A stretch of DNA of 59,639 nucleotides from Planctomycetota bacterium (lineage in GTDB: Bacteria > Planctomycetota > Phycisphaerae > UBA1845), in contig JAJRPG010000092.1 in the NCBI GenBank assembly GCA_024280855.1, positions 1 through 59,639 of the forward strand. Reading direction: 5' to 3'. Positions 8,067 to 34,299 of this stretch are shown here, one piece after another (the stretch's first letter is position 1; each line of letters opens with the position of its first letter). Under the pieces are notes generated by a model. The model did no database searches and was not told the DNA's origin. It saw only the letters and a list, made by a program, of their open reading frames with translations. The position numbers and the translations under genes were made by a program.

Positions 8067-8139
8067 CCGAACGCCTGTGGCCGAATCAATCACAATTTAA
8101 TTTTAAAATTGAGCAGTGAGATTCACAACAAATAACTGG

Positions 8140-8159: not shown

Positions 8160-8166
8160 GACGACT

Positions 8167-8294: not shown

Positions 8295-8354
8295 GAAGCT
8301 TGGTTATACCACCCAACACCCTACAGTATGAGTGCGACCTTCATGGCCAATTGC

Positions 8355-9035: not shown

Positions 9036-9092
9036 TACCTGGCTTCGACCTATTTTATAACTTGTACTTTTTGGTGATGGCGCATGATTCGA

Positions 9093-14286: not shown

Positions 14287-14307
14287 TAGCTCATCTCGTT
14301 ATTCACT

Positions 14308-17620: not shown

Positions 17621-18805
17621 TTATTCTGGAGAGGGCTGGTCTTGGTCTTCTGGTGTTTTCTCTTCTACCGGGACTGAGGGGTCGAATGGTTCTTCTGCTT
17701 CGGGCAGTCGTCCCAGTGACTCGGCAGAGGCAAGAGGGACGGCTAGGTCTATCGCGCCGCCATCACGAGAGAGTCGCATTTGTAAATCTTCCCCTGCTGG
17801 AATCATGTAAATTTGCTTGGCTAGGTCGGCGTAGTTTCGCAACTTAGCCCCGTTAATCGCTTCTATAATGTCGCCCGGTAATGCGCCAGCATCTCGCATG
17901 GGCGAAGGGTCCGCAATGGATTTAACCACAACACCAACGCCGGGTACGCTACTTACTTGAATTCCTAGCCAGCCTCGCTGGAATGAAACGCCGTCCATAA
18001 GCTGAGGGGCGATTATATCTATGCGCGTTTTGGGCACTAAAAAACCCACACCGCAGTCGTACATTTCCGCGCCAGCTAATTCTCCTGCCCGCTGGGCCAT
18101 GGGTACGGCGATGCCAATGACACGGCCATACACGTCGCAGACTGGGCCGCCATAGTTGACGGGTGACAACTTGGCGTCAGTTTGGATGGCGTTACCCTGC
18201 ATTCGATTCAATGCGCTAATCACGCCGACCGTAACCGAAGGCTCTCGGCCACCGAACCCCAAACCTAGCGCAATCGCCCATTCACCAACCTGGACATCTT
18301 CACTTTTTCGCCATGTGGGTAGTGGTAAATCAACTGCGTCTACTTTGAGCAAGGCTAATTTTCGTACATAGTCGCGGGCGACGAGGTCTGCGGCTAAGCG
18401 GCGGCCGTCTGGTAATGTGACGGAAATGAGAGCAGGTTCTCTTGCGAAGTTGAAGCTACTGGTGAGGATGTATCCATCGCGGGAATAGACAATGCCCGTA
18501 GCTGGGCCATCGGCGATGACAAAGCTGGAGCCTAGCGTGTCGCGGAATGGATTTTGTAAACGCTTCTTGCCTTCCTGTTCGTCGTCATCGCCAAGGGTCA
18601 ATTTTTTTCCTGGCTGCGTGCCGCCTACGGTGTCGATACGCACGAGATATGATTTCATAGAAGCGGCGACGTCGCGGAAAACCTGCTGCGTAGCGATCAT
18701 CAATGCGGTGTCGCTGTCTACTTCTTTAGTTTGTGCCTTAGCCTTGGTAACTGGCCAAGGGCAACTTAGTAGTAATAGCAGAATTATAATGGTTCGAGAT
18801 TTCAT
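17621..18805 (-). CDS. Catalytically dead HtrA-like protein with PDZ domain (second pseudoprotease)
   Basis: 394 residues with a signal peptide (ends KAQ). It has the fold landmarks of an HtrA protease followed by a PDZ domain (about 270-360, GWLGIQV to IYMIPAGEDL). All three triad positions are changed: in GYILTSSFNF the His position is Phe118, in VRKLALLKV the Asp position is Lys149, and in SPVNYGGPVCD the Ser position is Tyr218. The tail is Glu/Pro-rich. It is the last gene of the large minus-strand block and overlaps its upstream neighbour, another triad-less paralogue, by 4 bases. It likely binds rather than cleaves: a partner, adaptor or sensor for the active protease 20001-21794 (inference). 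Confidence 0.85.
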   Translation of the reverse strand: MKSRTIIILLLLLSCPWPVTKAKAQTKEVDSDTALMIATQQVFRDVAASMKSYLVRIDTVGGTQPGKKLTLGDDDEQEGKKRLQNPFRDTLGSSFVIADGPATGIVYSRDGYILTSSFNFAREPALISVTLPDGRRLAADLVARDYVRKLALLKVDAVDLPLPTWRKSEDVQVGEWAIALGLGFGGREPSVTVGVISALNRMQGNAIQTDAKLSPVNYGGPVCDVYGRVIGIAVPMAQRAGELAGAEMYDCGVGFLVPKTRIDIIAPQLMDGVSFQRGWLGIQVSSVPGVGVVVKSIADPSPMRDAGALPGDIIEAINGAKLRNYADLAKQIYMIPAGEDLQMRLSRDGGAIDLAVPLASAESLGRLPEAEEPFDPSVPVEEKTPEDQDQPSPE

Positions 18806-20019
18806 GGCTGATTCTTCGCTATTGGCGGGTCAATATGAATGGTCAGAATTCTTCGTTTTCGCCTGATAACAAGCTCGATCGTATCTGCGGGGCCTCGTGT
18901 TTTCATGCGCTTGGTGAATTGAGATACATCAGAAATTTCTCGATCATTTACTGACAAGATCAAGTCATCTTTTCGTAGGCCTGCGCGTTGGGCAGGTGAA
19001 TTTCTGACGACACGTTCAACAAAGGGTAACACAGTGCGAAAGCCGGTGCGGGTGATTCGAATACCAGGGTCGAACGATTCTACTTGAGGCTTAGTCGTAA
19101 TTTCACCTGAGCCATCTGAAGGCGATTGCGTTGCGGCTAAGTAAAAGTCTGCGAGAACGTCGTAAGGGATGGCATAGTTAAGGTGTGTGTGCGTTCGGTT
19201 GGAGATGACGAGCCGGCCTATCATGCCGACTAGCTCGCCTTGCAAATTGACCATAACACTGCCGGGGCTTCCGGGGTTGCTGGTAATGGCGTCGATAAGC
19301 AACACGTCTCCGGTATATCGAAAATCTTTTGACCGACGGCGGGCGTCCAGGCGCGTTCGGGCAGAGAAAACACCGTGGGCGAGTGACATTTGTTCAGAGC
19401 CATCGGCAATTTTGAATGGGTTACCTGCGGAAACAATCCAATCGCCGGGGAGCAGCGGCTCATGGCAAGTGTTTGATGAAGACTGCTGACAAGAAAAATC
19501 GTAATGAGGTAATGGGCCGATGAGTTTTTCCTGTGACGATCGATCTACGTCTTCCGGTTTATTCAACTTTAATAAGGCTAATTGTAGGTCGGTGTCGCGC
19601 TTGATGAGCTGAGCTTCGTAGCGCGAGCCGTCGGCGGTGACGGCGCGGATGCGGTCGCCGGACACGATGAGCGATAGAACGGTGACGATGTATCCATCTT
19701 CTGAGGCGATGATTCCCGTGCCGTATCCGACCTGTTGACCTGCACCTAAGCCGTAAAGTTTTACGGCTCGTTGTTGGGCGGTTTGAAAAGCGTGGTTGAA
19801 ACCGCCGGCGTGGACCTTGGGCGCTAAGAGCGTTAAGAGAATGCTGAACACACCGATGGTTGAAAAAATGCTAGCTCTTACCGCGAGATACGAAACTTGG
19901 TGATTGTTATGCTTTCGTGGCTCCGCGCGGGCTGAAGCCCGCGGCTCGTTAGGAAGCTCGTTCAAGAAGATTGATGTGATCGTTCTGTATTCGCTTATGG
20001 TCACGGTAGCACTTTCCAA
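18802..20019 (-). CDS. Catalytically dead HtrA-like protein with PDZ domain (first pseudoprotease)
   Basis: 405 residues. Protease-like domain about 95-300 and a C-terminal PDZ domain (residues 315-400, NSPAQRAGLRKDDLILSVN). The triad is lost: GYIVTVLSLI has Ser116 where His is expected, DLQLALLKL has Gln146 for Asp, and NPGSPGSVMVN has Pro252 for Ser. The N-terminus before the hydrophobic signal (about 52-70) contains ELPNEPRASARAEPRK, which is encoded by a dispersed palindrome of family E; no other Met lies before the signal, so the repeat seems to be translated. It overlaps both neighbours (18 and 4 bases), indicating coupled translation with the active paralogue upstream. Confidence 0.82.
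   Translation of the reverse strand: MESATVTISEYRTITSIFLNELPNEPRASARAEPRKHNNHQVSYLAVRASIFSTIGVFSILLTLLAPKVHAGGFNHAFQTAQQRAVKLYGLGAGQQVGYGTGIIASEDGYIVTVLSLIVSGDRIRAVTADGSRYEAQLIKRDTDLQLALLKLNKPEDVDRSSQEKLIGPLPHYDFSCQQSSSNTCHEPLLPGDWIVSAGNPFKIADGSEQMSLAHGVFSARTRLDARRRSKDFRYTGDVLLIDAITSNPGSPGSVMVNLQGELVGMIGRLVISNRTHTHLNYAIPYDVLADFYLAATQSPSDGSGEITTKPQVESFDPGIRITRTGFRTVLPFVERVVRNSPAQRAGLRKDDLILSVNDREISDVSQFTKRMKTRGPADTIELVIRRKRRILTIHIDPPIAKNQP
19921..19952. repeat. Palindrome family E, copy 2, inside a coding sequence
   Basis: CCGCGCGGGCTGAAGCCCGC plus CGGCTCGTTAG, in the N-terminal codons of the first HtrA pseudoprotease. It has the same layout as 17434-17463 and 49113-49140, with compensating changes that keep the stem. 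Confidence 0.8.
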
Positions 20020-21794
20020 TCGCTCATCATGTCACTATAACGATAACCTTGGCCTCGAACGTGGATGGTTTGTGGCAATCGCACACCTGACACAGATTGA
20101 TAATCCGAAAAGTACATCGTGCCTAGCGTGCCAGCTTGTTCATGCCAGATCACAGCGCGACGCAGTTCGTGGGTTTTGGTGTCAAAGGCTAAGCGAACGA
20201 CTGCGCCTTTATCCAGCGGTGAGAAAAGTTCTTCTACATCGCTCGAAATGATTTCTACGCCAGCTAATTCGTTGGCAAAAAACATGTCCACTGGCGATTC
20301 AATTCCATCATCGAGGCGATAGTCTACATTCGCGCCGTCGTGATATAGCGCAATCGAATTTAACGAATCTTCAGGCTGAAACAAACGCTGATATACCAGG
20401 TGCATGACCGAAAGTACGCGGCGCTCGAACGATCGAACATCCGAACCTCGTCGGTCGTCGTGATCGAGTACCTGAATTTGCTGGGCATCGACTTCTAATA
20501 GTCTTGCTGGTTCACCTTCCTGATCGTATTCCTGCAATAATAGTGATCCTTCTTCGGTAGCTTGGACGTCATAAGCGTCGAGCGTTTTCCAAGTCGATCT
20601 CATGGCGTCATCATACGTTCGGCAGGCGTGCCATTGGTACTTCGTAGCCAGAGAATCCTGAGCTTTGATACCGACTGCTTTTCTAAATGCACGAATCACG
20701 CGGTCCACCTCTTGGCCATTGGCTAACCCGTCTGGGGAATATTGACTTCTCAGTTTCGGTGCAACTGGTCGCAAAGGAACGACTGTTCGGCCTGATTTTC
20801 CATCACGTTCAAAATCGACGAATAAATTCCAATAGCCTGGATAGGTTCCCAGTAGACTTACGAAATGGTTTGAAGATACAACGGGCGTGGTGTCGATGGC
20901 TAGGATGCGATCGCCACGGCGCAGGCCCGCGAGGTAAGCTGGTCCGGCGCTGCGAATTTTATCGATCACCACCATGTTTCGATCTTCCTGAACCGTGGCT
21001 TCAAAAGAACCATGCTGGGCGAGTCCTCCGGCGCGAAGCAATGGTATGAAACGCCGAATCTGATTGGTAGTAATCGCATAGCCAAAGCCGACATTGAATC
21101 GGCCTCGGGTGTTGATGGAGATGCGGCCATTGATTCCAATGACTTCGCCACTTTCATTATACAATGGCCCGCCCGAATTTCCGGGATTGATCGGCGCGTC
21201 AATTTGAATGCAGTCGGAATAGGTTAAGTTGCCTTTCACACCCCATTGATATCGATGAACGCCAGTTACTAAGCCAAGGGTAAGAGTGGGGTTCTCATCT
21301 TCAGTAAGACTAAACGGATTCCCAAGTGCTATGGCTGTGTCACCTACGCTGACGAGATCGGAGTCGCCAAGCATTGACCAGGGGAACGAGTCTCGCCCGG
21401 TTAATTGGAACATCGCGACATCGCCGATGGGGTCAATGCCCAATACACGCAGATCGTAGCGCTGGCCATCACTAAGCCCGCCGAAGCCGCTGCGCGTCCG
21501 TAACATGCTGGCGACGACATGATAGTTGGTAATTCCAAAGCCATTTTCGTCGATAAGAACGCCAGAGCCTCCGCCGCGCTGCTCAGTGTTGTAAATAGCG
21601 ACGACGCTGGGGGTGACTCGATCAACGACTTGAATTCTTTGCTGCTGAGATTCTAAAACAACATTCGGAACTTGCACCAGTTGCGATTTCGACTGAACGG
21701 TGGTGTCAGCATGGAGGCTGGTTGAGAAGCAACAAATTAGCCCAATCAGCGGCATAATCTGAAGAAAATAATTTGTTCGAGTGAGACGGTTCAT
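20001..21794 (-). CDS. HtrA-like trypsin-fold serine protease with PDZ domain and long C-terminal region
   Basis: 597 residues with a signal peptide (ends SLHA). The triad is intact: His92 in TNYHVV, Asp125 in IGDVAMF, Ser207 in NPGNSGGPLYN. A PDZ domain follows at about 270-345 (YLAGLRRGDRILAID). The last 250 residues (from about 355) are not part of the DegP plan; they contain strands and a tail ending in WKVLP, resembling an outer-membrane lipoprotein-sorting-like beta sheet. It should degrade or process proteins in the periplasm. It is followed, with overlap, by two paralogues that lack the triad, and preceded 16 bases upstream by an NPCBM protein. Part of the 23-kb block with MoxR and vWA genes. 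Confidence 0.88.
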   Translation of the reverse strand: MNRLTRTNYFLQIMPLIGLICCFSTSLHADTTVQSKSQLVQVPNVVLESQQQRIQVVDRVTPSVVAIYNTEQRGGGSGVLIDENGFGITNYHVVASMLRTRSGFGGLSDGQRYDLRVLGIDPIGDVAMFQLTGRDSFPWSMLGDSDLVSVGDTAIALGNPFSLTEDENPTLTLGLVTGVHRYQWGVKGNLTYSDCIQIDAPINPGNSGGPLYNESGEVIGINGRISINTRGRFNVGFGYAITTNQIRRFIPLLRAGGLAQHGSFEATVQEDRNMVVIDKIRSAGPAYLAGLRRGDRILAIDTTPVVSSNHFVSLLGTYPGYWNLFVDFERDGKSGRTVVPLRPVAPKLRSQYSPDGLANGQEVDRVIRAFRKAVGIKAQDSLATKYQWHACRTYDDAMRSTWKTLDAYDVQATEEGSLLLQEYDQEGEPARLLEVDAQQIQVLDHDDRRGSDVRSFERRVLSVMHLVYQRLFQPEDSLNSIALYHDGANVDYRLDDGIESPVDMFFANELAGVEIISSDVEELFSPLDKGAVVRLAFDTKTHELRRAVIWHEQAGTLGTMYFSDYQSVSGVRLPQTIHVRGQGYRYSDMMSDWKVLP

Positions 21795-21810: not shown

Positions 21811-23073
21811 CTATTGGGTATTGGTTGAGTTTTCTAATCGAGAAGGTTTTTTTATTAGCCTGGCGCCTGCCCAATCGGCGTGGTCAGCTAGGTCTATTTC
21901 ATCGCCGTAATCGACCAGAAGGGTCAACACTTTGACACTGGATATATCTACGCTAACCAAACTCGACGGGTCTGATCCATGCACTAAGCCACTATCGAAA
22001 ATAACTTTGTCGTCGCCAAAGACTTGAAACACGACGCTGCCACGCGGGGCGACGCTATCGTCCAGCCCGATGGTTGAGACGAAGCGTTCGTAAGCCTTGC
22101 TTACATCAAAACTAATACGGGTACGACTATGAACACCCAAACCTTTTTCATATTCGATCCCGCCCAGGCGTAAAGGGTGCATGGCAACGCTTCTATCACG
22201 GCGCAATGGCCAGGGTTTGTGAATGCGTCCTTCGATTTTTTCGTCTAGCGGAGAAAGATCGCTGATGTAGACGATTCGACGACTGTAGAATTTTATTTTT
22301 TTAACCAGATCAATAGGTAGTGAAAATTTAATGGGGTGCGAAAGCTTGCCCGCGATGCGGGTTTCTAGATGTAATTGCTTCTTATCAAGCTTGGTCACTT
22401 GGCTATAGATTGAAGAACCGTCAACAAAATCGACGCGAATCCCAGGGTTAATAATGGTTTGGCGAATTCCGGCGAATACGATACCGAAAATTTTCTCACG
22501 CTTAAACAGACGCTCGCGTTCGCTAAATACAAATCGCCCTTCGCTTTCGCCCAGCGTCGCTAACCGGCCTCTCATTACTTTTGCTTTGTCTTTGCTTCGC
22601 GTAATTAGGACGTCGTGACCAGGCAAGGGCTTGTCTAGCGCATCAGAAAAAAGCTGAGCAGATTCAGAGAAATTATCTGTATCAACCAACTTCACCCCGG
22701 CTAGGGCATCAAAGGGCAGGGTGATGGATTCGCCCCACCATGTGCGCACCATGATGGCATCATCGTCACTGTCTAACAACTGGGCAAATAATCGCCCGCC
22801 ATCCGCAAGGTAAATCGTTACGTCATTTTTTTTATCACGCAGCGGCACATCAAATGTGATGGACATTAAGTCATCGAAGCTTAGCGATTGTTGCGTGGTA
22901 TCAGTGTCGAGTATTACCTCATCATTCGTCAATGCGATAAGGCGCCCTGCGATAGGTTGGCCATCGATATGCAATGCGGTTGCGGAGATAGTCTCGGCAC
23001 GAGCCAATGGCGCAATGCTTAGGACTAACCAAGCGATGGCAAACGGACTAAGGTTTCTTGGCCAATTCTTCAT
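21811..23073 (-). CDS. Secreted protein with NPCBM carbohydrate-binding-like domain
   Basis: 420 residues with a signal peptide (ends ARA). N-terminal part: repeated small beta units (GRLIALTNDEVILD; GGRLFAQLLDSDDDAIMV; GRLATLGESEGRFVF), which look like Sm-like or adhesin-type barrels. C-terminal part (about 275-410): an NPCBM/NEW2 domain, seen in YEKGLGVHSRTRISFDV, FQVFGDDKVIFDSG and WAGARL. NPCBM domains bind sugars in glycosidases and are frequent in planctomycete surface proteins. It overlaps the upstream gene by 26 bases, so it is translationally linked. Ligand unknown. Confidence 0.8.
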   Translation of the reverse strand: MKNWPRNLSPFAIAWLVLSIAPLARAETISATALHIDGQPIAGRLIALTNDEVILDTDTTQQSLSFDDLMSITFDVPLRDKKNDVTIYLADGGRLFAQLLDSDDDAIMVRTWWGESITLPFDALAGVKLVDTDNFSESAQLFSDALDKPLPGHDVLITRSKDKAKVMRGRLATLGESEGRFVFSERERLFKREKIFGIVFAGIRQTIINPGIRVDFVDGSSIYSQVTKLDKKQLHLETRIAGKLSHPIKFSLPIDLVKKIKFYSRRIVYISDLSPLDEKIEGRIHKPWPLRRDRSVAMHPLRLGGIEYEKGLGVHSRTRISFDVSKAYERFVSTIGLDDSVAPRGSVVFQVFGDDKVIFDSGLVHGSDPSSLVSVDISSVKVLTLLVDYGDEIDLADHADWAGARLIKKPSRLENSTNTQ

Positions 23074-24157
23074 AGTATTGTTCTACAAGCTGACGATACC
23101 GACTCGGAAAACTATCACGCAGCGCCTGGAGAATTTGCTCGCGCTGCGCAGGAGGCATCGAACCCCAACGGTCTGCGGGATTGGCTCGACGTCCTTCTCG
23201 AAGCGCCCCATCTTGTGCGTCGCCACCTGAAAGTCTACCTTTCTCCATCGGCTTATCCTGGGGGTCGGGGCTACCGGCATCTTTCTGCCCTTGTTTCCCT
23301 TGTTGTTGCTGCTGTTGCTGTTGCTCCTGCCCTTCTGATTTACTGCTGCTACTACTACTGCTTTGCTCGTCTTCCTCGGCTGAGTCGATTAGCTTATCCA
23401 GTAATTCGATGATGCGGGTTTGTCGAGTTTGCACGGGTTCATTGGCTTCACCGAACCCAAGACGGCGGCGCGAGAAACCCATTAAGTCTACAACGTCTCC
23501 CATGCTTTCAGGTTGTCGGCCTGCTAACTCTGCTTGCATTTGCTGGGCAGTGATGATTAGTCTTTGCGAATCTCCGGTGTAGGTTTTCAAAAATTCGCCC
23601 AGGGCTTTGTAGGCCTTTTCGTATTGCATATCGGACAGCAAACAAACGCCACGAAGAAAAGATATCTCGCCAGCGTGGTAAGTGTACGTTAATAAATCCC
23701 ACTCGGTGCTTTCGTATATTTCTTCAATTAACGCGCCAGCTTCACGCATGCGCTCCATAGCTATGAGTGATTTTACTTCATAGACAACGGCATGAGTTGA
23801 TACAAATGGATTTTCTGAGGTGCGTATTTTTTTTAATAACTGGACAGCTTGATCGTAGTCGTCGGCATCGAAGGCATCTAAGCTTTCTCTAAATGCAGGG
23901 ACTAAGACTGATAAACCTTGAGCGAGAAATTCTGCGCCGTCGCAATCGTCGCATTCTCGCCAGGTTTTTTGGATTAATTCACGGGCTTGTTCTGGTATCG
24001 ATTCGTCTGCGGTGACGCGCTCTACAAATCGATCTGCTGGGCTTGCCCAAGCGATGGTTGCGGAACATAGCGTAATGGCACCAATAGTCACCCAGGCTTT
24101 CGAAAGCCAAGCGAATTTTTTTGCCAAATGAATCGTATGCGAAGTTTTTACCCTCAT
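23048..24157 (-). CDS. Secreted helical-repeat protein with Ser- and Gln-runs
   Basis: 369 residues with a signal peptide (ends AWAS). The middle (about 70-215) is built of helix pairs (FDADDYDQAVQLLKKIR; YEKAYKALGEFLKTYTG), a TPR-like solenoid. A low-complexity linker follows, with seven Ser and eight Gln in a row, then GKQGQKDAG and a C-terminal motif PPAQREQILQALRDSFPSRY RQLVEQYYEELAKK. That ending is typical of short proteins encoded beside MoxR/vWA genes in planctomycetes (from memory). It overlaps the gene before it by 4 bases. Probably a periplasmic scaffold; no enzymatic motif. Confidence 0.7.
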   Translation of the reverse strand: MRVKTSHTIHLAKKFAWLSKAWVTIGAITLCSATIAWASPADRFVERVTADESIPEQARELIQKTWRECDDCDGAEFLAQGLSVLVPAFRESLDAFDADDYDQAVQLLKKIRTSENPFVSTHAVVYEVKSLIAMERMREAGALIEEIYESTEWDLLTYTYHAGEISFLRGVCLLSDMQYEKAYKALGEFLKTYTGDSQRLIITAQQMQAELAGRQPESMGDVVDLMGFSRRRLGFGEANEPVQTRQTRIIELLDKLIDSAEEDEQSSSSSSSKSEGQEQQQQQQQQGKQGQKDAGSPDPQDKPMEKGRLSGGDAQDGALREGRRANPADRWGSMPPAQREQILQALRDSFPSRYRQLVEQYYEELAKKP

Positions 24158-24924
24158 GGCGACTCAACCCTTTCTCGCATTTGATTCGCTACGCCTTCGG
24201 TTTCCTGCTGACGCGAAAATGTTGATTCCAACTGTAATCGTAGCGAATCTTCCGGCTCATCTCCGGATTCGTAAGCTTTGTGAATCGCAGTGGTTCTGGT
24301 ATTGATTCGCAGCTGCATAGATTTCAATAGCTTGAGTTCACCGGAAAGCGGCAACAGCGAATCATCTTTTTTACCCTTTTTTTGCCCCGACTGACCGCCC
24401 TGCTCTTCGTTTTCCTGCTGCATCTTTTTTACAGAATCAAGTAGCTGCTCCAACGCATCGATGATTTCCTGTTCAATAGCCTGGGTCAACGTGCCTGTTC
24501 TTAGTAAACTTAAACGCTGGGACACGCTCTGCATGTCTTTGGTAATTTGTTCTACCACATAAGGAAATACAATCGTCGTGCCGTCTTCATCCAGAATATG
24601 CGCACAACTCGCAGCCTGCTCTGATAGTGCCGCCTGCTTGGCAGATAGTTCCGCGATTTGAAGTTTCTCCGGCCTTTTGAAAGCATCGCGCCCAATGTGG
24701 TCCAGGACAAGCGTCTTGGCGTTAATGGCTTTTTGTTTGGATAATAAGACTCGGAACCGAGCTTCCAGATGCCGCAAGGTCTCGGCTCGGTCTTCCTGAC
24801 GCAACTGGCTTAATGCTTCTTCTAACTCTAACTCAGCCTGCTCCAACTCTTCAATAGCCCGGTCCTGCTGCGGCAACGCTTCTTCGGATTTCTCCTGTTT
24901 GAGAGACTCGGCTGCGTCCTTCAT
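24154..24924 (-). CDS. C-terminal part of an interrupted coiled-coil protein
   Basis: 256 residues if translation restarts at the ATG at 24924. It is helical and charged (EELEQAELELEEALSQL; ETLRHLEARFRVLLSKQ), then a segment with VVEQITKDMQSVSQRL, a Gly/Lys-rich linker and a helical end. It lies in the same frame as the upstream gene: from its TAA (25021-25023) to this ATG there are 32 sense codons, Q/E-rich and compatible with a linker. In related planctomycete proteins (from memory) this segment is the C-terminal half of one long protein. The restart site has only a weak GAAGAA ahead of it. It overlaps the next gene by 4 bases. Confidence 0.65.
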   Translation of the reverse strand: MKDAAESLKQEKSEEALPQQDRAIEELEQAELELEEALSQLRQEDRAETLRHLEARFRVLLSKQKAINAKTLVLDHIGRDAFKRPEKLQIAELSAKQAALSEQAASCAHILDEDGTTIVFPYVVEQITKDMQSVSQRLSLLRTGTLTQAIEQEIIDALEQLLDSVKKMQQENEEQGGQSGQKKGKKDDSLLPLSGELKLLKSMQLRINTRTTAIHKAYESGDEPEDSLRLQLESTFSRQQETEGVANQMRERVESP

Positions 24925-25020
24925 TTCTTCTTCGGCGTTTTCAATATTCTCAAGACCCGGAGGCTCTTCGTCGGCAGGCTCATCGCTTTCATCTTGCTGC
25001 TGCTGTTTCTGCTGGTCTGA

Positions 25021-26235
25021 TTACTCACCCTCACCTTGCTCGCCCTTCTCTCCCTTCTGACCTTGTTTCCCTTTTTGACCCTTCTGACCTTGTTGGCTCT
25101 GCTGAGATTTCTGGCCTTGCTGACTTTTTTGTCCCTTCTGACTCTCCTGACCTTGCTCGCCTTTTTTACCGCTTTGCGATTGGCTTTGCTGAGATTGACT
25201 ATCCGGCGATTGGCCTTTCTTCATCTGCTCAGCTAGCTGTTCCGTTTCCTTTGATAGCTCTTCTTGTCGCTTGGCTAAGTCCTTCTTCTTGTTCTCTTGA
25301 TCGAGTTCTTTTTTAGCTTGTTCCAATTGCTCTTTGGCCTTGTCGAGCGACTCCTTAGCTGACTGCTGCTGCGATTTAGCTGACGAAGAGTCACCACTTT
25401 CCATTGATTTCTTCGCTTGAGACATGCTCTTGGATGCCTCGGATAAAGACTCTGACGCTTTACTGGCACTCTTCTGGGATGAGGCTTCACTTGACTCAGT
25501 AGGTTTTTCGTCCTGCATCTTCTCGGCGATTTTTTCCACCTGCTCAGCCAGCGCCTCAGCTTGCTCGGCTAATGACTCCTGCTGTTTTTCCAGTGATGGC
25601 TCATCGCCATTGCTTTCGCCCGCAGCTTTAGCATCCGATTCTTTCAAGAGTTTGCCTTGTTGACCCCTTAAGCTATCCAATTGTTGCAACGCCTGATCGA
25701 TTTGCTGGCCTAACGCGCCTTGCGCATCTTGCTGATCGACGTCGTCGCGTAAGGACCGCTGCTCTTTTAATAATCGTTGTACACGTTCTTGATAAGCTTT
25801 GAGCTTTTCGATTTCGCTGCGACGTTCATCATTTTCACCGTCACGTTCCATGAGAATGTTCAAGAGCGCATCGGCATCCTCAACCCATTTAGTCTGAGCA
25901 TCTAATGCGTTACCAGAAGAACCAACTTCGTCTAACAAACGAATGATATCTTCAAGACGATCATTTAGGCCTAGCTCACCAGACCGTTCGAGAACCTTGG
26001 CTAACCGTTGGGCGTTTTCTGGTTCGGTTTCGGAAAGCTCTTCCCTCAGACGGAAAATACGGTCTTGAAATCGCACATACCGATCGTGAATCATGCGCTG
26101 CTTACGGGCGAGAGGTGATTCCTCGGTGCTATCAGCTGACCCTACCTGTCCTGGCTGAGGTTGGGCTACGACTACTGACGTACCTATGGCGAGTAATATG
26201 AACAGCAGCGATGTTATAAAGAATTTTGAATTCAT
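25021..26235 (-). CDS. N-terminal part of an interrupted Q/K/S-rich coiled-coil protein
   Basis: 404 residues with a signal peptide (ends VVVAQ). The mature part is almost wholly helical: heptad-like segments (FQDRIFRLREELSE; IDQALQQLDSLRGQQGKL), then a Ser/Ala/Lys-rich and Gln/Glu-rich part and finally short QKGQKGKQG-type repeats. It ends at a TAA, after which the frame stays open into the downstream feature, so the natural product was probably about 690 residues. A single C-to-T change of a CAA (Gln) codon would give the TAA, which fits the Gln-rich context. It lies between the large membrane protein and the helical-repeat gene. Likely a periplasmic structural or scaffold protein. Confidence 0.7.
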   Translation of the reverse strand: MNSKFFITSLLFILLAIGTSVVVAQPQPGQVGSADSTEESPLARKQRMIHDRYVRFQDRIFRLREELSETEPENAQRLAKVLERSGELGLNDRLEDIIRLLDEVGSSGNALDAQTKWVEDADALLNILMERDGENDERRSEIEKLKAYQERVQRLLKEQRSLRDDVDQQDAQGALGQQIDQALQQLDSLRGQQGKLLKESDAKAAGESNGDEPSLEKQQESLAEQAEALAEQVEKIAEKMQDEKPTESSEASSQKSASKASESLSEASKSMSQAKKSMESGDSSSAKSQQQSAKESLDKAKEQLEQAKKELDQENKKKDLAKRQEELSKETEQLAEQMKKGQSPDSQSQQSQSQSGKKGEQGQESQKGQKSQQGQKSQQSQQGQKGQKGKQGQKGEKGEQGEGE

Positions 26236-26311: not shown

Positions 26312-28441
26312 CTAATCTTCAAAAACGTCGTCTCCTTGCTTATCGAGCGAATCCTTCGTCTCGGTATGCAGCTCATTTTGTAATCGCATGATATCACGCA
26401 GCATGTTCACCAGCTCGTGATACCCTTCCCATTGTATCATGCCATCCAAAATCGATTGCATTTTTCTCAAAATCGCTTCCTGATGCTCGTCTATTGAGCG
26501 ATTTTCCTGCCCCAGCGACTGCCTGGACCAGCGACGGATTTCGTCGGCGGCGTCGATTAAATCTCGCGTAGCTAGCATCGTAAGCGGGTCGATAATCGTA
26601 TCAACTAACCGCTCAACCTCATCTTTAGTATCGAGCTGATTGATGCGTAGCTCGTCAAGAATTTGCTGAAACTGCTGACGAACGATATTTACAGAACGAG
26701 CGAGGTTTCGCTGACGCCTTTCCAGCGGCGATAGCAGCAACGCGAGTTGTTCTTTAGTCAATTCGCCCTGAGCCTGTCTGGCCGCGGTGAGCAGGTCTCC
26801 GCGAAGTCTTCCCTGAGAATGGACGATGCGCTGAAAGTCCATGCGGTATTCTTGCTCGCGCCGGGATAGCTCGGCTAATAACTCATCACGGGAAACCACG
26901 CGCAATGTCACAACCGTCGCATTAGATGTGCCCGGGCCTGTGACGTCGTTGAAATCTGATGCGTGAGCGCCTAAAAAGAGGCGATCTCCTTCGACAGCCT
27001 CTGACGCTTGAATGGGCCAATTCAGCGTGGTTGAAAATTGTTTGCGGGCTGGCACGAACTCTGGAAGCGCCACCGGCATCTCGCTCGCTGATTCATCATC
27101 CATACGATAAAACAAATCCAGCGTCGCTAGTCCATAGGTATCGTTACATTCTACCGACACCGGAAGGATAGCCTCTTGCGTAACCATATCCCCTACGCCG
27201 GGTATCCGCACGCGAACAAAAGGCGGCTCGTCTTCAATCACACGAATCGAAAAACGCACCGGACGCTTATTGTCTAAGCCCACCTGATCGCGCAATTGAA
27301 AATGATAAGTGTCGGTATCCTGCGGTGAGAAAGTAACCGTATACCACGAATCATCCGTAGTCTGGGTTTGAGATTCTAGCCCATCACCGTTGACGAGTGA
27401 GATGTCAGTCAATGGCTTATCCACAGTCACAGCTATGGTTACGCGACTTCCTTGTAGCACTTCGAGATGTCTTTCACCATCGCCATACGTCACTGGAGAT
27501 TGCAAACTATAAGCAGGAGGATCAACCTGAACCTGCGATGTGGCCACGCGAGGCCTTTCCTCTAACTTAGCTTCATACCACCGCGTGCGGTCGTCTCCGC
27601 CTCGGAGTGAAAATTGAAAATTTTCTCGCGCATCTTTGAACGTGTAACGATAGCGATATGTTCCCGCGCTACCCACCGTCACCATCATTTCTCGGCCACG
27701 CTTACCGGAAGTCGTTTCGTAGTGGAATTCGACCTCGCGCGGCGCTTCGCCTTCTGCATAAGCCTGGATAATCAGGTCATCGCCGATAGCTCCGAACAAC
27801 ACATCACCCTCTAATTCCACAACCAAATGCGTGCGCTGAGGCCAGGGTGTTTCTTGTAACAAGACATTTCGCTCAAACCACAGTCCCACCGTTTTCGGCG
27901 ACCATAACAAAGTTGAAGCCGCTAGTGTGATTAAGATAATAAGATAAGTGCCAACGCGACGCGCATGTTGACGATTGACGACGACATCAAAATCCAAACC
28001 CGACACAGCCTCAGTCGCTCGCTGAACCACGCTGCGCATTAGCGCGGGTGAGTTCGACGACGGCTGAGCAATGTCGTCACTTGAAAACCTCACGGCTGAA
28101 ATCAAAACTGATGATAGTTGGGGATAAGACCGCTCGACTAAATGAGCCGCCTCCACTGGCCCCATAGGCAGGCGAAGTGGTTTCAACAATCTGCGCCAGG
28201 CTATGAAAAGCAATATCGACATAGCTGCAGCGCCATAAGCGAATCGCATACTCCATCGCAACCCGTGTGAGCCGTAATCCATCGCGAAACTTACGACGGA
28301 TAGAAGCAGCATCGTCGCTACGATACGCGTCATGGCGTCCAGCGTGACCAACATGCGAAGCCTGCGCACTACGCGCATCAGCCGCGCTTGCACACGCTTA
28401 TCGAGATCAAGTTGAATGGCTAGCGAATTACCCATCGTCAT
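26312..28441 (-). CDS. Large membrane-anchored protein of the MoxR/vWA cluster (DUF4175-like)
   Basis: 709 residues. Three membrane helices in the first 190 residues (IVATMLLLSVVSFAM; FAYGAAAMSILLFIAW; YLIILITLAASTLLW). Then a long extracytoplasmic beta-rich part with Ig-like units (VQVDPPAYSLQSPVTYG; FSIRVIEDEPPFVRVRIPG) and a C-terminal helical region (LSRREQEYRMDFQRI; DIMRLQNELHTE). This layout matches a family found next to MoxR, DUF58 and vWA genes and usually called DUF4175; the assignment is from overall layout. Its proximity to a secreted coiled-coil protein suggests the two interact in the periplasm (inference). Confidence 0.7.
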   Translation of the reverse strand: MTMGNSLAIQLDLDKRVQARLMRVVRRLRMLVTLDAMTRIVATMLLLSVVSFAMDYGSHGLRWSMRFAYGAAAMSILLFIAWRRLLKPLRLPMGPVEAAHLVERSYPQLSSVLISAVRFSSDDIAQPSSNSPALMRSVVQRATEAVSGLDFDVVVNRQHARRVGTYLIILITLAASTLLWSPKTVGLWFERNVLLQETPWPQRTHLVVELEGDVLFGAIGDDLIIQAYAEGEAPREVEFHYETTSGKRGREMMVTVGSAGTYRYRYTFKDARENFQFSLRGGDDRTRWYEAKLEERPRVATSQVQVDPPAYSLQSPVTYGDGERHLEVLQGSRVTIAVTVDKPLTDISLVNGDGLESQTQTTDDSWYTVTFSPQDTDTYHFQLRDQVGLDNKRPVRFSIRVIEDEPPFVRVRIPGVGDMVTQEAILPVSVECNDTYGLATLDLFYRMDDESASEMPVALPEFVPARKQFSTTLNWPIQASEAVEGDRLFLGAHASDFNDVTGPGTSNATVVTLRVVSRDELLAELSRREQEYRMDFQRIVHSQGRLRGDLLTAARQAQGELTKEQLALLLSPLERRQRNLARSVNIVRQQFQQILDELRINQLDTKDEVERLVDTIIDPLTMLATRDLIDAADEIRRWSRQSLGQENRSIDEHQEAILRKMQSILDGMIQWEGYHELVNMLRDIMRLQNELHTETKDSLDKQGDDVFED

Positions 28442-28473: not shown

Positions 28474-30972
28474 TTACAACAAATGTTTCCATTTTCTACA
28501 AAACCATTCTACCGAGAGCAAGCCAATAAGCAGCGTCAGTGTCCAGCCATTGTCCCACAACGAAGTTGGCCTTGATCGCACGGAAACTTCTTCATGTCGA
28601 TCCGGAATCAAACCCGGAATTTCGTTAAGTTCATCAATCTCAAAATAGGCCCCGCCTGCAGATTGCGTTGCGAGCAAGGTCAAATCTTCGCGGGCCATCT
28701 GCGGATTGAGCACTTCGATATTAGGCCTGGAAACACGCACTTCGCGCGCGATTGTGGTTAATTCCGCGGTGCTACGTCCCGGCACCTGCACCTCGATGCG
28801 ATAGGTTCCATTTTGCGTAGGCACGAATCTTCCTTCGTACCAGCCCGCTCGCTCACGTTGCGGGGTGAGTAGGAAATCGCGTTTTTCGCCTTCAATCTCA
28901 AACGTCGCTTTTACTTCAGCCTTACGCATGGGTTCAAATTGTTCATCGAGCAGGCGGGCTGTAATGGTAACACTCTCTCCGATGGCGTATCGGTCGCGCT
29001 CCGTCAATAGCAAGCCACGCTTCGTGCCACCCAGCAATTTCCCCTCAGCTAAATAGCGTACCATTTGAATCCAAAACCGATCAAAGTTTTCAACACCGCT
29101 ACGCCGCCAGCGCCAGGTGCCATCAAAAGCTAAAAAGCCGCTACGCCCCGCACCAACAAATTGCACAGCTGCGAGCACATGCCCACCCCACGCATGTCGC
29201 ATACGCGGGTCGCCATGCCTCATCAACACCGTCGCAGCAGGCTTAGCTCGCAAGACGGGATAATGCCAATAAACCTGACTCAACCCACGCCACGCAAGCT
29301 TGGTCGCCACAGCATCCCCGGCTAATCGCAATATGTTATGATGGAACGACGCCTCTGGAATGTCTATCGGCGCAGGTTTTGACTGGTAATGGCCAATTTG
29401 ATTCAGCACCAAATCTGCCTCAGTGTCTAACACGACCGGAAGCAAATCAATAAGCGGAGATAAGGATACTTGCCTCAAAAATAAAGGCGAACGAGCGCGG
29501 GCTGCGGTATACAACAACCCCCCGCCATGCTCTGCCACGAACCTGTCAGCTAACTGTGCCCAGGCCTGATCGAATTCGGAGGCATCGGGGTCCATGAGGA
29601 CAATGGCGTCGTACTCGAATAGCTCCTCGGCTAATCTCGGAAGATGGTCGATCACCGTATTGCCATCGCGCACAGAACTCAGATCAGCGGACTGCAGCCA
29701 ACAACTGACGTCTATCGTGTCGTCTCGCTCCAAGAGTCGCGTAAGAAATCGATAATCCCAGCTTGGCCCGCCCGACACAACCAAGACCCGCGTCCGCGCA
29801 TCAATCACATTGACCGTCACCTGTTGACTATTGTCATCCACAACAGACTCGGCTTCTACCTCAGGCACGCGCACCGTATAAATGTATCGGCCGACACGAT
29901 CTTGTCGCCGCTCAAAACTGACTGACTTCGTCTCCCCCGTACCAAGCGTCAACGTGCGGGTATCCACAACATGTTCACTTCCCGTCGCGACATGTTTTTC
30001 CAAAAGCTCAACCAACAATAACTCATCGTCTACCCCCTCACCCACGACCTTAGCTGTCACGGCAAAAGGGTCACGCTGTAGCGCATTTTCAGGGGCTAAG
30101 GTTTCGGTCACGCGAACATTACGCGGCGGCGACGGATCACCGACACCAACCGCATAAACCGCGATGTCTCGTGATTTTGCATATCGCGCAATGTCAACGG
30201 CTCGTCCCCCTTCATTTAATCCGCCATCGGATAACAAGACGACACCAGCTATGGGAGCGCTGCCGAGTGACTCTATCGAAAGTCGTAGTGCGCGATCTAA
30301 ATTAGTCACCGGACCAGCCGAGGTCATCGCTAATGAAATATCATCAGCCTTACCCGACGATTGTTCATCCTTATCTTCATTCACACCTAAAGATTCTCGC
30401 TCACCAGCAGAGCGGATGGTTCCTCGTAGTTCAGGCTCGTCGCTAAACGAATAGACTTTGACTCGATTATTAACCGCTAGCTCTGTTAGCCAGGCACGGT
30501 TGTTAGCGTTTAACATAGTCTCCACAATTTCACGCCGGCGCACGCCCTGAGTTTCCTCTGCGGACATAATAGTTGCCACGCGCGTAGCGGCCTGGGGTGA
30601 TCGATAGGTATCTGCTAAATCCATGCTCGACGAATCATCGACCAGAACAATCGTATAAGAATCGACCCATTGCCTCACAATGCGCACGCTAACAGGCTCT
30701 AACAAGATGATAGCTAAGATCAACAAAACGCTGCATCGCAACAAGCCTAGCACGGTCCTCGCCCTGGGCGATGCGCCGCGCCGACCTTCGCGTTGATACA
30801 TACCCATCACCAACCAACACGCAGCTAGCACCAACGCGGCAAAGCCTACCGCCCACCATCCTTCGGGCATGCGGCGAAGCTCGGTCACAAAGGTTTCCTG
30901 TTCACGAGTCACGGGCGCAATCGCAGCGGATAACCAAGAGAAAGACAAAATGTCCCAAGCTACACTATGCAT
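28474..30972 (-). CDS. Membrane-bound von Willebrand factor A protein with C-terminal membrane anchor
   Basis: 832 residues. Two N-terminal membrane helices (about 40-57 and 75-92), a vWA domain with the metal site DDSSSM (Asp112, Ser114, Ser116) and GVVLLSDGGLNEGG, then a beta domain, a glutamine-amidotransferase-like domain without an obvious Cys/His pair (LVVSGGPSWDYRFLTRLL; YDAIVLMDPD), further beta domains and a last helix (LTLLIGLLSVEWFCRKW). Proteins of this plan belong to MoxR-vWA systems, where the vWA domain binds client proteins through Mg. It is 36 bases after the BatA-type gene, so they are co-transcribed. Confidence 0.82.
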   Translation of the reverse strand: MHSVAWDILSFSWLSAAIAPVTREQETFVTELRRMPEGWWAVGFAALVLAACWLVMGMYQREGRRGASPRARTVLGLLRCSVLLILAIILLEPVSVRIVRQWVDSYTIVLVDDSSSMDLADTYRSPQAATRVATIMSAEETQGVRRREIVETMLNANNRAWLTELAVNNRVKVYSFSDEPELRGTIRSAGERESLGVNEDKDEQSSGKADDISLAMTSAGPVTNLDRALRLSIESLGSAPIAGVVLLSDGGLNEGGRAVDIARYAKSRDIAVYAVGVGDPSPPRNVRVTETLAPENALQRDPFAVTAKVVGEGVDDELLLVELLEKHVATGSEHVVDTRTLTLGTGETKSVSFERRQDRVGRYIYTVRVPEVEAESVVDDNSQQVTVNVIDARTRVLVVSGGPSWDYRFLTRLLERDDTIDVSCWLQSADLSSVRDGNTVIDHLPRLAEELFEYDAIVLMDPDASEFDQAWAQLADRFVAEHGGGLLYTAARARSPLFLRQVSLSPLIDLLPVVLDTEADLVLNQIGHYQSKPAPIDIPEASFHHNILRLAGDAVATKLAWRGLSQVYWHYPVLRAKPAATVLMRHGDPRMRHAWGGHVLAAVQFVGAGRSGFLAFDGTWRWRRSGVENFDRFWIQMVRYLAEGKLLGGTKRGLLLTERDRYAIGESVTITARLLDEQFEPMRKAEVKATFEIEGEKRDFLLTPQRERAGWYEGRFVPTQNGTYRIEVQVPGRSTAELTTIAREVRVSRPNIEVLNPQMAREDLTLLATQSAGGAYFEIDELNEIPGLIPDRHEEVSVRSRPTSLWDNGWTLTLLIGLLSVEWFCRKWKHLL

Positions 30973-31008
30973 AAATCGTTTCTACAACTCCCATTTTTCG
31001 GTGACATT

Positions 31009-33309
31009 TTATCGCCGACGTCCCCATGACCACGCCAAAAACTGTTCAAAAAGAAGCACCGCTACTACCGCAAAAAGCACCAGTCGCCACATCTCTGTTC
31101 TAGGATTACCAACTTCACCCGATAGCGCCTCCACGCCATCTACATATTCAATAGGCACGCCCTCATTCGCCTGCCTCAATTCAGATTCATTCGCCGAGGC
31201 CACATCACTCTCTCGCGTATCAGGATTCACCGACACCAGACGAATCGTTTGCCCCTGGTCTCGCCGCTTCAACACAAATTGGTACACGCCGCAACGATTG
31301 GTATCCGCCCAGGTAGCCACCAAACCCGCACCTTCTTCTGCCGACTTCGCAGTCACGACGACCTCTCGCTCATTGGGATACGCTGGTGTGCGCACGATGA
31401 CCTCTGATTCAAAAGCGGAAGTATCGATAGCCATCTCAATAGGCACGCCAGCCGCATAATCTGTGCCGTCAGCATTGCGTTTGGAAACGTGCAGGGCGAA
31501 CTCCATCATGACCGGAAGATACGTTGGATGGTTAGGCCAAAGATGCCACTCCTTATCCGCCGCCGTCGTAACCATTAGCACGCGACCTTTACCAAACCGT
31601 TGCTCAACTATCGCGGGATAATCCTGGTCATCTCGAAACACAGCCAATACCCGGGCTGACGATGTTGTTGCCATGTCGCTGTCACCATCTTCGCCATCTC
31701 GCTCATCAACCTCAGCCATCTCGTCCGCGTCCGCAAGCTTACAATCGAAAAACTCCAGGAATGGAATTTCTGACAGGCCAAGCGGGTCTCCCTCTAAGCT
31801 CAAAGGTCGCATGATCGGATGTAAACGATCTACAATCTTAAGATGAAAAGGCCGGGCGCCGCGCACACGCTCTCCCAATTTTGCAGGAAGTAGGCCAATA
31901 CCATCGCGGTATAAAGTCGCGTTATACAAACCTGGGTCAACTTGATCGCCAAGATAAAAAATCACCCCACCGCCACGCCGCACAAACTGCTCCAACCGCT
32001 GAGCCGCAGGTTCACTCACGCGATAAACATTGGCGATAATCACCGCGTGATACATTGAAAGATTAGCCGTCTCAAGCTCCGACTCATCGACCACGACCAC
32101 ATCGTTACCGCTAAACACCTCACCCTTGGGACGAAGCGCGGTAGTCAAATACGTCACTTCATCTTCAAACAAGTCAGTCGAAGGTTCGCCATTGACAACG
32201 AGGATGCGAATTGAATTAGCCACGTCCGCTACGAAAAATCGTTCGTTGTCCAGGTCTAACGCATCATGCGGAATCGAAACACGAACCGTCTCATACCCTG
32301 CCGAAACAAATGAAGCATCTAAATCGACAGAACTCGTTAAACCGCCCACCAACTCCGGTATAGTTTTGGTCGGTTGAGCCAGGTTGCCCACCGTAATTGA
32401 CACATCCAAATTCGCGGCTGAACCTTGCGCATAGTTCGCCACCTTCGCCCGCAGCGTAGCCTCTGCCCCCGTCACCAACTGCCCACCCGTCAGACGGACA
32501 TCCGTAACCGCGATATTCTTAGCCTCATCCTCACCCACATCAATAAGTACAATCTGCAAATCGTGGTCATCGCTGGACCAATCCATTAACGGCTTGAGCA
32601 ACGACCCGCCAGTTTCATCATCACTGTGCGTATCTGCAAGCCAATCCTTCTTCTGAAAATCGCTGACCACATACACGGCTGCGTTGATAATATCTTCGCT
32701 GTTTGATAGATATTTATTGACATGCTCAACCACCTCTACCGGATTCATCGCCAATTGCGAAACCGAAAGTGATTCTAAGCGGGCTAATAATTCGGGCGTT
32801 TGCCGTTCATCGAGAAAAGTGCCTCGCTCCACCGGCGAATCAGGCTCTGTCATGCGGAAAATAGTCACGGTATCGTCTGGCGATTCTTCCCGGATTAACT
32901 CAATCAAGCGATGCACGCTTTTCTTAGCGTGAGCAAACAACGCAACCCCGTCAGACACATAGCCCATGCTAAAAGAATCGTCGATCAAAATAATGCGCTC
33001 GGTCTGCGCCCTGCCGCTCAAAGAAGCCACGATACCGCTGGGCGTTAAAAATGGCCTAGCTATGAGCATCGCAATTAACAAAACCGCTAAACAACGCAGC
33101 GCGAGCAATAGCCATTCTTCGAGCTTGACCCTACGACGATTTTTCTTCTCCGCAGCCAATAAAAATTCTACCGCAGCCCAACGCACCCGCTTAAAACGTC
33201 TGCGGGCTAACAGGTGAATAATGATGGGCACAGACATGGCAGCCGCCCCAGCCATGAATAGACTGGGCGTTACAAATGCTGCGGCTAATATGGAAACTGA
33301 AAACGTCAA
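31009..33309 (-). CDS. BatA-type membrane protein with vWA domain
   Basis: 766 residues. Starts with the BatA N-terminal membrane motif (FVTPSLFMAGAAAMSVPII, LLARRRFKRVRWAAVEFLL, then LLLALRCLAVLLIAMLIARPFL). The vWA domain follows with metal site DDSFSM (Asp110, Ser112, Ser114). A large extracytoplasmic beta region and an amidotransferase-like segment (YHAVIIANVYRVSEPAAQRLEQF) come next, with a C-terminal helix (LVLFAVVAVLLFEQFLAW). BatA proteins partner MoxR ATPases in envelope stress and chaperone functions in Bacteroides and others. The DUF58 and MoxR genes are directly upstream. Confidence 0.85.
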   Translation of the reverse strand: MTFSVSILAAAFVTPSLFMAGAAAMSVPIIIHLLARRRFKRVRWAAVEFLLAAEKKNRRRVKLEEWLLLALRCLAVLLIAMLIARPFLTPSGIVASLSGRAQTERIILIDDSFSMGYVSDGVALFAHAKKSVHRLIELIREESPDDTVTIFRMTEPDSPVERGTFLDERQTPELLARLESLSVSQLAMNPVEVVEHVNKYLSNSEDIINAAVYVVSDFQKKDWLADTHSDDETGGSLLKPLMDWSSDDHDLQIVLIDVGEDEAKNIAVTDVRLTGGQLVTGAEATLRAKVANYAQGSAANLDVSITVGNLAQPTKTIPELVGGLTSSVDLDASFVSAGYETVRVSIPHDALDLDNERFFVADVANSIRILVVNGEPSTDLFEDEVTYLTTALRPKGEVFSGNDVVVVDESELETANLSMYHAVIIANVYRVSEPAAQRLEQFVRRGGGVIFYLGDQVDPGLYNATLYRDGIGLLPAKLGERVRGARPFHLKIVDRLHPIMRPLSLEGDPLGLSEIPFLEFFDCKLADADEMAEVDERDGEDGDSDMATTSSARVLAVFRDDQDYPAIVEQRFGKGRVLMVTTAADKEWHLWPNHPTYLPVMMEFALHVSKRNADGTDYAAGVPIEMAIDTSAFESEVIVRTPAYPNEREVVVTAKSAEEGAGLVATWADTNRCGVYQFVLKRRDQGQTIRLVSVNPDTRESDVASANESELRQANEGVPIEYVDGVEALSGEVGNPRTEMWRLVLFAVVAVLLFEQFLAWSWGRRR

Positions 33310-33369
33310 GCCCTAACCTTCAACCTCTCTGGTGTTTTTCTAAACGACTAACAACAACCCTATTAGATT

Positions 33370-34299
33370 CTACGCCCGTGCCCGTCTGGTACGCAGACGC
33401 GCGGACAAGCATGTCACTAGCGCCGTATCCAAAGTGTCAGCCGTACTAATTGTGGCGTAACCAATACCACGGTCCAGGCACGAACTGCGCACCTTGCTCA
33501 CAAACGATTGGAACGCCTCCAGATAACTGTCCCGCAGCGACTGGGGATCAGTCAAAATTTCAATATCTAAATCTTCCATACCTTCAAACAGCGTTCGATC
33601 GGTAAATGGAAATTCAATTTCATCCTGATCCAAAATATGCAACACAAGCACATCATGCTCATGATGTTGAAACCGCTGCAATCCCTTGGCGAACGTGTCT
33701 ACATCCGTCAGTAAATCAGACAAAATCACCACCAACCCACGTCGCGGAATCGTGCTGTTTAACTGCTGAAAAGGTATAGCTAACTCGGTAGCCCCCGTGG
33801 GCGCGTGATCTTCAATGCACCGAACAACCCGATGAAGCGAGCCTCGGTTTGATGACACCGGCAACGTCGCGCGAACGGTCTCGTCAAATAGCGTCAAACC
33901 CACGCCATCTTGCTGATGCACCAACAGATGCGCAAGCGAAGCTGCCACCGTCGCGGCGTAATCCCATTTAGTCATACGGTCTGGCGCAGGTTGCTCTGGA
34001 TAAGCCATCGACCCGGAGCAGTCCAACAAAATATGCACGCGCATATTCGTCTCTTCTTCGTATTCTTTAATAAAGAAACGATCCGCTTTGGCGTATACGC
34101 GCCAGTCGATATGTCGAATATCATCACCGGGCACATAAGGCCGATGACTGGCAAACTCAACGCTGAATCCCTTATAAGGACTCTTGTGCATCCCGCTGAC
34201 GAAACCGTCAACCACACGACACGCGCGAAGCTCCAGCTTGGATATTCGGCTTAATATATCAGGCCGTAAGTACTTTGCGTGCGCACTCATCGTCATCAA
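33370..34299 (-). CDS. DUF58 (vWA-like) protein of the MoxR system
   Basis: 309 residues, cytoplasmic. The DUF58 signature is clear: SVEFASHRPYVPGDDIRHID, then WRVYAKADRFFIKEYEEE, then a vWA-like metal site LLDCSGSM (Asp93, Ser95, Ser97), and VILSDLL. DUF58 proteins are the standard partner of MoxR ATPases, thought to serve as metal-dependent adaptors. The start overlaps the end of the moxR gene by 41 bases, so the two are translated together. Confidence 0.92.
   Translation of the reverse strand: MMTMSAHAKYLRPDILSRISKLELRACRVVDGFVSGMHKSPYKGFSVEFASHRPYVPGDDIRHIDWRVYAKADRFFIKEYEEETNMRVHILLDCSGSMAYPEQPAPDRMTKWDYAATVAASLAHLLVHQQDGVGLTLFDETVRATLPVSSNRGSLHRVVRCIEDHAPTGATELAIPFQQLNSTIPRRGLVVILSDLLTDVDTFAKGLQRFQHHEHDVLVLHILDQDEIEFPFTDRTLFEGMEDLDIEILTDPQSLRDSYLEAFQSFVSKVRSSCLDRGIGYATISTADTLDTALVTCLSARLRTRRARA

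Follow-up and report, generated by a model that had tools for sequence, protein, structure and literature searches.

A candidate mixed HtrA set of one catalytic and two triad-less paralogues in Planctomycetota

A planctomycete contig from the class Phycisphaerae (UBA1845; NCBI GenBank assembly GCA_024280855.1, contig JAJRPG010000092.1, positions 1 to 59,639, hereafter the window) encodes three consecutive HtrA-like proteins, here called P1, P2 and P3, of which only P1 has a catalytic triad. On the basis of their sequences we lean towards the view that the three gene products assemble into one exported HtrA oligomer of mixed composition, in which P1 would provide the single active site; a 1:1:1 trimer is its most likely form. 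The initial annotation of this DNA had proposed a dedicated active/inactive set, and that proposal is strongly supported by the co-occurrence of the three genes (including four genomes in which P3 is unlinked), by the old clades that they form, by recurrent P1-P2 fusions and by the activation machinery that has been kept. The three genes are as follows.

20001..21794, reverse strand: P1, 597 amino acids, an active HtrA protease with PDZ domain (approximately residues 43-348) and a C-terminal domain (approximately 356-597), assigned from Pfam, structure matches and a model; triad H92, D125 and S207; activation cluster T177, R181 and Q197; LD-loop P160-F161.
18802..20019, reverse strand: P2, 405 amino acids, a triad-less HtrA-PDZ paralogue, assigned from Pfam and alignment; S116, Q146 and P252 at the triad sites; L241 in place of the cluster Gln; LD-loop aromatic F202 kept.
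17621..18805, reverse strand: P3, 394 amino acids, a triad-less HtrA-PDZ paralogue, assigned from Pfam, alignment and a model; F118, K149 and Y218 at the triad sites; S197, R201 and Q208 equivalent to DegP S183, R187 and Q200.

All three proteins have the layout of the HtrA/Deg family (S1C), a trypsin-like domain followed by PDZ: the Pfam Trypsin_2 model recognizes P1, P2 and P3 with 95.5, 62.4 and 88.3 bits, respectively (cut-off 27.6), and each protein passes at least one PDZ model. Their closest solved structures by sequence are DegP, DegQ and similar HtrA proteases. AlphaFold models of P1 and P3 (predicted local distance difference test scores of 86.7 and 89.1) both show the HtrA fold, and their best matches among HtrA structures extend over protease and PDZ domains (P1 to 2z9i, Z 29.8, root-mean-square deviation 4.0, 282 aligned; P3 to 3qo6, Z 27.1, root-mean-square deviation 4.8, 290 aligned). 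The domain models, the HtrA matches by sequence and the P3 model thus bear out the annotation in stating that P2 and P3 keep the fold and the PDZ domain. The proteins fall below the cut-off of the DegP/Do subfamily TIGR02037 (169.6, 114.9 and 157.1 bits against 416.2), and below the curated equivalog cut-off of 800 for both MamE (117.8, 42.4 and 76.0 bits) and MamO (56.9, 26.7 and 23.7 bits). The annotation had the genes overlapping or abutting by 16, 18 and 4 bases, of which the 4-base overlap between P2 and P3 stands; the 16 bases are a gap between the low end of the upstream NPCBM gene (21811) and the high end of P1 (21794), and the P1-P2 overlap is 19 bases (20001-20019), provided that P2 starts at TTG, a doubtful start.

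The loss of the triad was followed through alignments of 80 P1, 81 P2 and 77 P3 rows. His, Asp and Ser are present together in 78 of the P1 rows, and the other two show a blank in the His column; in one of these (G006) the start-codon rule shortened an open reading frame (ORF) whose open frame spans profile positions 13-545 without a stop, and in the other (G273) the P1-P2 copy is damaged. No P2 row has a complete triad (0/81), the lone survivors being Asp in eight rows, His in one and Ser in the damaged G273 copy. No P3 row has the catalytic Ser (0/77), its site being occupied by Tyr in 73 rows and Phe in four; the His site holds Phe, Tyr or Trp in 73/77, and Asp remains at its site in the two rows from family f9. 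Judged by the triad, P1 is an HtrA protease, and P2 and P3 are HtrA-fold pseudoproteases. All 23 other HtrA-like proteins examined from the window genome and related genomes of the class have the full triad. The residues read by the initial annotation, His92, Asp125 and Ser207 in P1, Ser/Gln/Pro in P2 and Phe/Lys/Tyr in P3, were recovered on the ORFs.

Since the motifs align across all of these rows, and a His that is invariant or nearly so is missing from the alignments of both P2 and P3, the triad has not been relocated within the paralogues, an outcome that the annotation had named as refuting its proposal had it occurred. The same result bears on the idea that P2 or P3 is active through a different catalytic set, for which the Asp retained in eight of the 81 P2 rows could be cited; no His occupies an invariant or nearly invariant column of either protein, other dyads not having been searched systematically, and we regard this idea as highly improbable. 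We give almost no credence to the view that P2 and P3 are functionless, decaying duplicates. The two lost triads and a few broken copies (a P3 interrupted by a stop in G198 and the P1-P2 damage in G273) speak for such a view, and it is contradicted by retention across the phylum and by the ratio of nonsynonymous to synonymous substitution rates. Between genomes G000 and G001 this ratio is 0.072 for P1, 0.074 for P2 and 0.055 for P3 over protease and PDZ domains (full range 0.055-0.122); such low values indicate purifying selection, and hence that the dead copies are not decaying.

The main clue to a link between the dead and live proteins is the activation cluster, which passes a signal between subunits in DegS and DegP (PMC11642142). 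As described there, the L3-loop Arg (DegS Arg178, DegP Arg187) orders the LD loop of the neighbouring subunit, and hence its active site, and the DegP cluster further comprises Thr176, Ser183 and Gln200. Alignment of P1 with DegP places T177, R181 and Q197 at Ser183, Arg187 and Gln200. The cluster is kept in P1 (Ser or Thr 79/80, Arg 79/80, Gln 80/80) and in the other HtrA-like proteins (Ser or Thr 23/23, Arg 21/23, Gln 20/23), and in P3 the Ser, the Arg and the Gln are each present in 77/77 rows. P3 thus retains these residues at least as strictly as working HtrAs do, despite having no active site of its own. A protein that keeps the switch without an active site needs a live neighbour to switch, and we infer that the co-inherited P1 is the obvious one. 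P2 shows a different pattern: the Gln is lost in 81/81 rows and the Arg is found in 28/81, and the LD-loop aromatic, which is on the receiving side of the signal (the position of DegP F171), is Phe or Tyr in 76/81. P1 carries both the cluster and the LD-loop aromatic. The LD-loop Pro is absent from P3 in 76/77 rows.

Two other accounts of the dead proteins meet this evidence. P2 and P3 could work apart from P1, as homo-oligomers or monomers whose PDZ domains and pseudo-active sites bind substrates or ligands, and could serve as chaperones or adaptors that feed P1 without sharing its ring. The retained PDZ domains agree with this account, and the pseudo-active site of P3 is specifically constrained (Tyr or Phe in 77/77), as a binding site would be; it leaves unexplained why an active-site-less P3 should keep the activation cluster in every row. 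Alternatively, a dead copy may have taken on a new role, for example in binding metal, and affect proteolysis by P1 only indirectly. The precedent is MamO, which lacks an active site, yet promotes MamE-dependent proteolysis and binds metal (PMC4794232). Against this second account, many of the conserved positions peculiar to P3 (S116, R148, S214 and Y218) border the former active site and the MamO model scores lie far below the cut-off, and we consider it improbable.

In order to determine how widely the set occurs, genomes were searched, mostly with profiles; a gene is called absent here when none of the best scored candidates of a genome matched strongly (4-6 candidates per genome in the class, and up to 16-25 in an 80-genome subset of the phylum sample). 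Loci L039 and L040, whose contigs equal those of G001 and G002 in length, were left out of all counts, L008 and L181 yielded no usable protein for the comparison with other HtrA-like proteins, and L003 and L005 were left out of the general HtrA profile. An initial search covered 60 genomes, of which 45, the window's own among them, gave a strong P2 match (E 1e-38 or better). The 44 stretches that were read have the gene order P1, P2, P3, with the same NPCBM gene alongside in most of them; P3 lies apart from P1-P2 in three (L068, L070 and L083), one stops at a contig end (L086), and P1 and P2 form one ORF in five.

Among 298 genomes of the class, profile searches found P1 and P2 in an identical 58 (own included) and P3 in 57 of those, and in the single genome without a P3 match (G104) the contig ends inside P2. 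The scores are bimodally distributed: 57 genomes have P3 at 342 bits or more and the next has 222; 58 have P2 at 245 bits or more, with no further genome at E 1e-50; and 58 have P1 at 420 bits or more, followed by 322 and 300 in family f9. P1 adjoins P2 in 57 of the 58 genomes, and P2 adjoins P3 in 49. P3 is located on a separate contig in G030, G048, G219 and G273 while the contig of P2 continues, so in these four genomes the set has been retained without linkage. The other five non-adjacent cases are G104, G249 and G291, which lie near contig ends, G244, which has the genes on three different contigs, and G284. In G030 the relocated P3 stands back to back with a second P3-like HtrA ORF on the opposite strand (L164, 4463-7399).

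The annotation had asked for a survey of further Phycisphaerae, and the trio proves not to be confined to this contig, nor to the class. P3 reaches E 1e-70 or better in 66 genomes of a 392-genome phylum sample; three of the 66 are the window's own genome or others of its class, and the rest are spread across many other families. P1, P2 and P3 occur together in 22 of 24 loci read outside the class, some with P1 and P2 as one ORF and a few with other neighbours; one of the remaining two is cut by the contig (G523). When all three profiles were applied to 80 genomes of this sample, the same 13 carried P1, P2 and P3. A scan of genome contigs returned four loci, of which two come from near relatives and the other two are HtrAs of Flavobacteriales at 32%. 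In a tree of 99 rows, P1, P2 and P3 each form one clade (support of 100, 97 and 99, respectively, in the Shimodaira-Hasegawa-like approximate likelihood ratio test), and the inner order of the clades is similar. The P3 ORFs of families f52, f93 and f119 are approximately 658-724 amino acids long and have a C-terminal extension, which in most of them contains a further PDZ-like stretch (L132, L134, L135, L137, L138, L143, L147, L149-L151 and L165).

Fusions provide a further line of evidence. Of the 80 P1 rows, 13 have P1 and P2 joined in a single ORF, which requires at least seven gains or losses on the P1 tree, six of them forced by starred branches; this tree cannot separate fusion from fission. 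Repeated P1-P2 fusion is among the observations that separately acting proteins would leave unexplained, as is the constant count of one live and two dead proteins. The same count recurs in a second, divergent kind of set, found by reading 13 loci picked among weaker profile matches: of 13 weaker P1-like matches, ten were read and G335, G354 and G365 were added for their matches in a further profile search, G359:C267, G334:C253 and G339:C126 lying outside the selection. One of these sets belongs to G322, a genome of the 80-genome subset with a P1 match of 327.6 bits. After omission of two loci cut by contig ends (L201 and L204), all 11 have three tandem HtrA protease domains in varying order, of which a single one has the full triad, and six encode the two dead domains in one ORF (L197, L198, L200, L203, L205 and L206). 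In every locus the cluster Gln is kept in one dead domain and missing from the other. In a tree the Gln-keeping domains group with P3 (support 91) and the live domains with P1 (93), and the Gln-less domains lie on one side with P2 (77, not starred). Tentatively, and given the long branches, the second kind fits one old three-part set, and three domains with one of them live would be the count required by one mixed trimer.

The C-terminal domain of P1 (window 20001-20762, residues 345-597) has a confident model and no clear family. The matches to DUF4292 are weak: five of 43 members have one, at best 5.6e-4, and the C-terminal part of the window's P1 reaches E 0.25. A LolA/RseB-like fold is a tentative label, as the fold searches were filled by protease matches. 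The domain is present in some P1-P2 fusions and absent from others, and the P1 proteins of family f9 are shorter.

Taken together, we infer that P1, P2 and P3 would form one complex. In such a complex the PDZ domain of P3 may sense a ligand, and Arg201 and Gln208 of P3 would bring the LD loop and the oxyanion hole of P1 into order; Arg181 of P1 would in turn contact P2, which would close the ring and might act as a scaffold or substrate-docking subunit. The protease would then have one blade, and a dead activator would set its activity in place of three equal subunits. A more specific form of this proposal, which we offer tentatively and rate somewhat short of likely, is an HtrA that exists obligately as a 1:1:1 heterotrimer, with a single active site and an allosteric relay that runs in one direction, in which P3 is a donor, P1 both a donor and the receiver that carries the blade, and P2 a receiver only; this arrangement would be ancestral to much of the Planctomycetota and repeatedly re-wired by fusion and gene order, always with one live domain to two dead ones.

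Several observations weigh against a mixed trimer or against parts of the relay. A mirror-tree test of co-evolution on 24 genomes, in which the TPR protein and two DUF4175-region proteins were used to remove shared operon history, was null (partial r of 0.093 for P1-P2, 0.089 for P1-P3 and 0.143 for P2-P3). In G601, P3 alone was found in the stretch read. P2 and P3 might each assemble into separate homotrimers, and the Ser, Arg and Gln of P3 might be retained for folding alone. The P3 equivalent of Thr176 is not conserved, and the LD-loop aromatic of P3 is still Phe or Tyr in 53/77 rows, which softens the claim that P3 is no receiver. In the second kind of set, some dead domains retain two triad residues, two of the 11 Gln-keeping dead domains lack the Arg (9/11 have it), and the live domain has the Arg in 9/11 and the Gln in 10/11, being without them in two and one, respectively. 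The labels of the dead domains were moreover set from these residues before the tree was built; the tree agrees with them, at supports of 91 and 77. The absence of excess co-variation in distances, like the ability of P3 to be unlinked from P1-P2, agrees with P2 and P3 being separate proteins, an account that we judge rather unlikely overall.

HtrA proteases are known as symmetric homotrimers, and the Arabidopsis Deg5-Deg8 protease is a hetero-oligomer. ClpP-ClpR is a protease ring that, as proposed for the planctomycete set, mixes catalytic and non-catalytic paralogues; it is ATPase-driven and its fold is unrelated to HtrA. DegS and DegP share with the set the fold, the PDZ domain and the activation-cluster residues, and differ in having three identical active subunits, where the roles here are apparently divided among three genes (PMC11642142 for DegS and DegP). 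Deg5 and Deg8 resemble it as two HtrA paralogues acting together, and differ in that both have a catalytic serine, as indicated by the S266A and S292A variants named in PMC3640471. The closest parallel is MamE-MamO (PMC4794232): an active HtrA and a triad-less paralogue reside in one gene cluster and are conserved as a clade, MamO promotes proteolysis by MamE, and the pseudoproteases arose independently in three magnetotactic groups. There is one dead partner there and two here, and MamO, which acts in magnetosome formation, has a transporter domain as well as a surface di-His metal site; the set described here has two separate dead families across a phylum, with the activation cluster and Tyr or Phe for Ser in P3. 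A look through an HtrA2 paper turned up no passage on mixed trimers, and no description of such a set was found in the literature as judged from titles and the beginnings of abstracts, with most subscription journals and all bioRxiv preprints outside the scope. Pairs of active and inactive HtrA proteins are already known, as MamE-MamO; what is new here is that two distinct dead families are kept with one live family phylum-wide, with the activation residues split between them. If the mixed oligomer is real, it is a natural HtrA with a single active site and shows pseudoenzymes established as fixed subunits across a phylum, and with activator and enzyme in separate genes the cis and trans parts of HtrA activation could be studied residue by residue.

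The genes upstream of P1 form an operon-like row, in which MoxR, DUF58 and vWA2 are names that we presume for genes at 28474-35341.

21811..23073, reverse strand: NPCBM/NEW2 domain protein, directly upstream of P1 and beside the set in most stretches read.
23048..24157, reverse strand: TPR-like protein of the same operon, with sub-threshold TPR matches.
24154..26235, reverse strand: DUF4175-like gene, one ORF in G001 and G002 and here split by an in-frame TAA (25021-25023).
26312..28441, reverse strand: d4175a, so called from its position next to the DUF4175-like gene; Pfam gives no match over the cut-off.
28474..35341, reverse strand: MoxR-vWA part of the operon, with the next four genes.
30972-28474, reverse strand: presumed vWA2.
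33309-31009, reverse strand: BatA-like protein with double-transmembrane anchor domain (TIGR02226, 78 bits, cut-off 23).
34299-33370, reverse strand: presumed DUF58 protein.
35341-34259, reverse strand: presumed MoxR ATPase.

The vWA2 protein has no vWA match in the Pfam scan, and the MoxR protein has AAA matches below the cut-off only. The TAA within the DUF4175-like gene sits in a low-complexity Q/K/G/E stretch and represents either a real truncation or an assembly error.

The annotation had further tied the HtrA genes to the MoxR-vWA genes, and this part of its proposal holds in a weaker form. In most stretches read, the set lies at the 3' end of the row (MoxR, DUF58, BatA-like, vWA, DUF4175-like, TPR-like, NPCBM), and the DUF4175-region gene of this operon scores at least 465 bits in 60 of the 298 genomes, namely all 58 with the set and two without it (G036 and G045), the next score being 461. 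On the other side, the operon was read without HtrA genes beside it in six genomes (G036, G045, G103, G115, G116 and G148), and in the two family f9 genomes (G060 and G092) the set is on a different contig from the operon. Because of the operon-only genomes and the separation in f9, set and operon are close partners and no obligatory unit. In this lineage the set probably shares a transcript with the MoxR-vWA envelope operon, and proteins of that system may be processed or policed by it.

Some other neighbouring genes were named by eye. In family f9 a tatC-like gene lies near the set (L154, approximately 7688-8548; L155, approximately 9064-9906). The window has a sigma-factor-like gene and a putative anti-sigma gene at 13636-14892, near panC and lgt, and a sigma-like gene is close to the set in several family f1 genomes. 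An extracytoplasmic function sigma/anti-sigma pair as a DegS-like target is unsupported here, panC and lgt intervening on the other strand. Another Trypsin_2 protein is encoded at 9093-9944 of the window, with its TNEHV and FSGG motifs intact.

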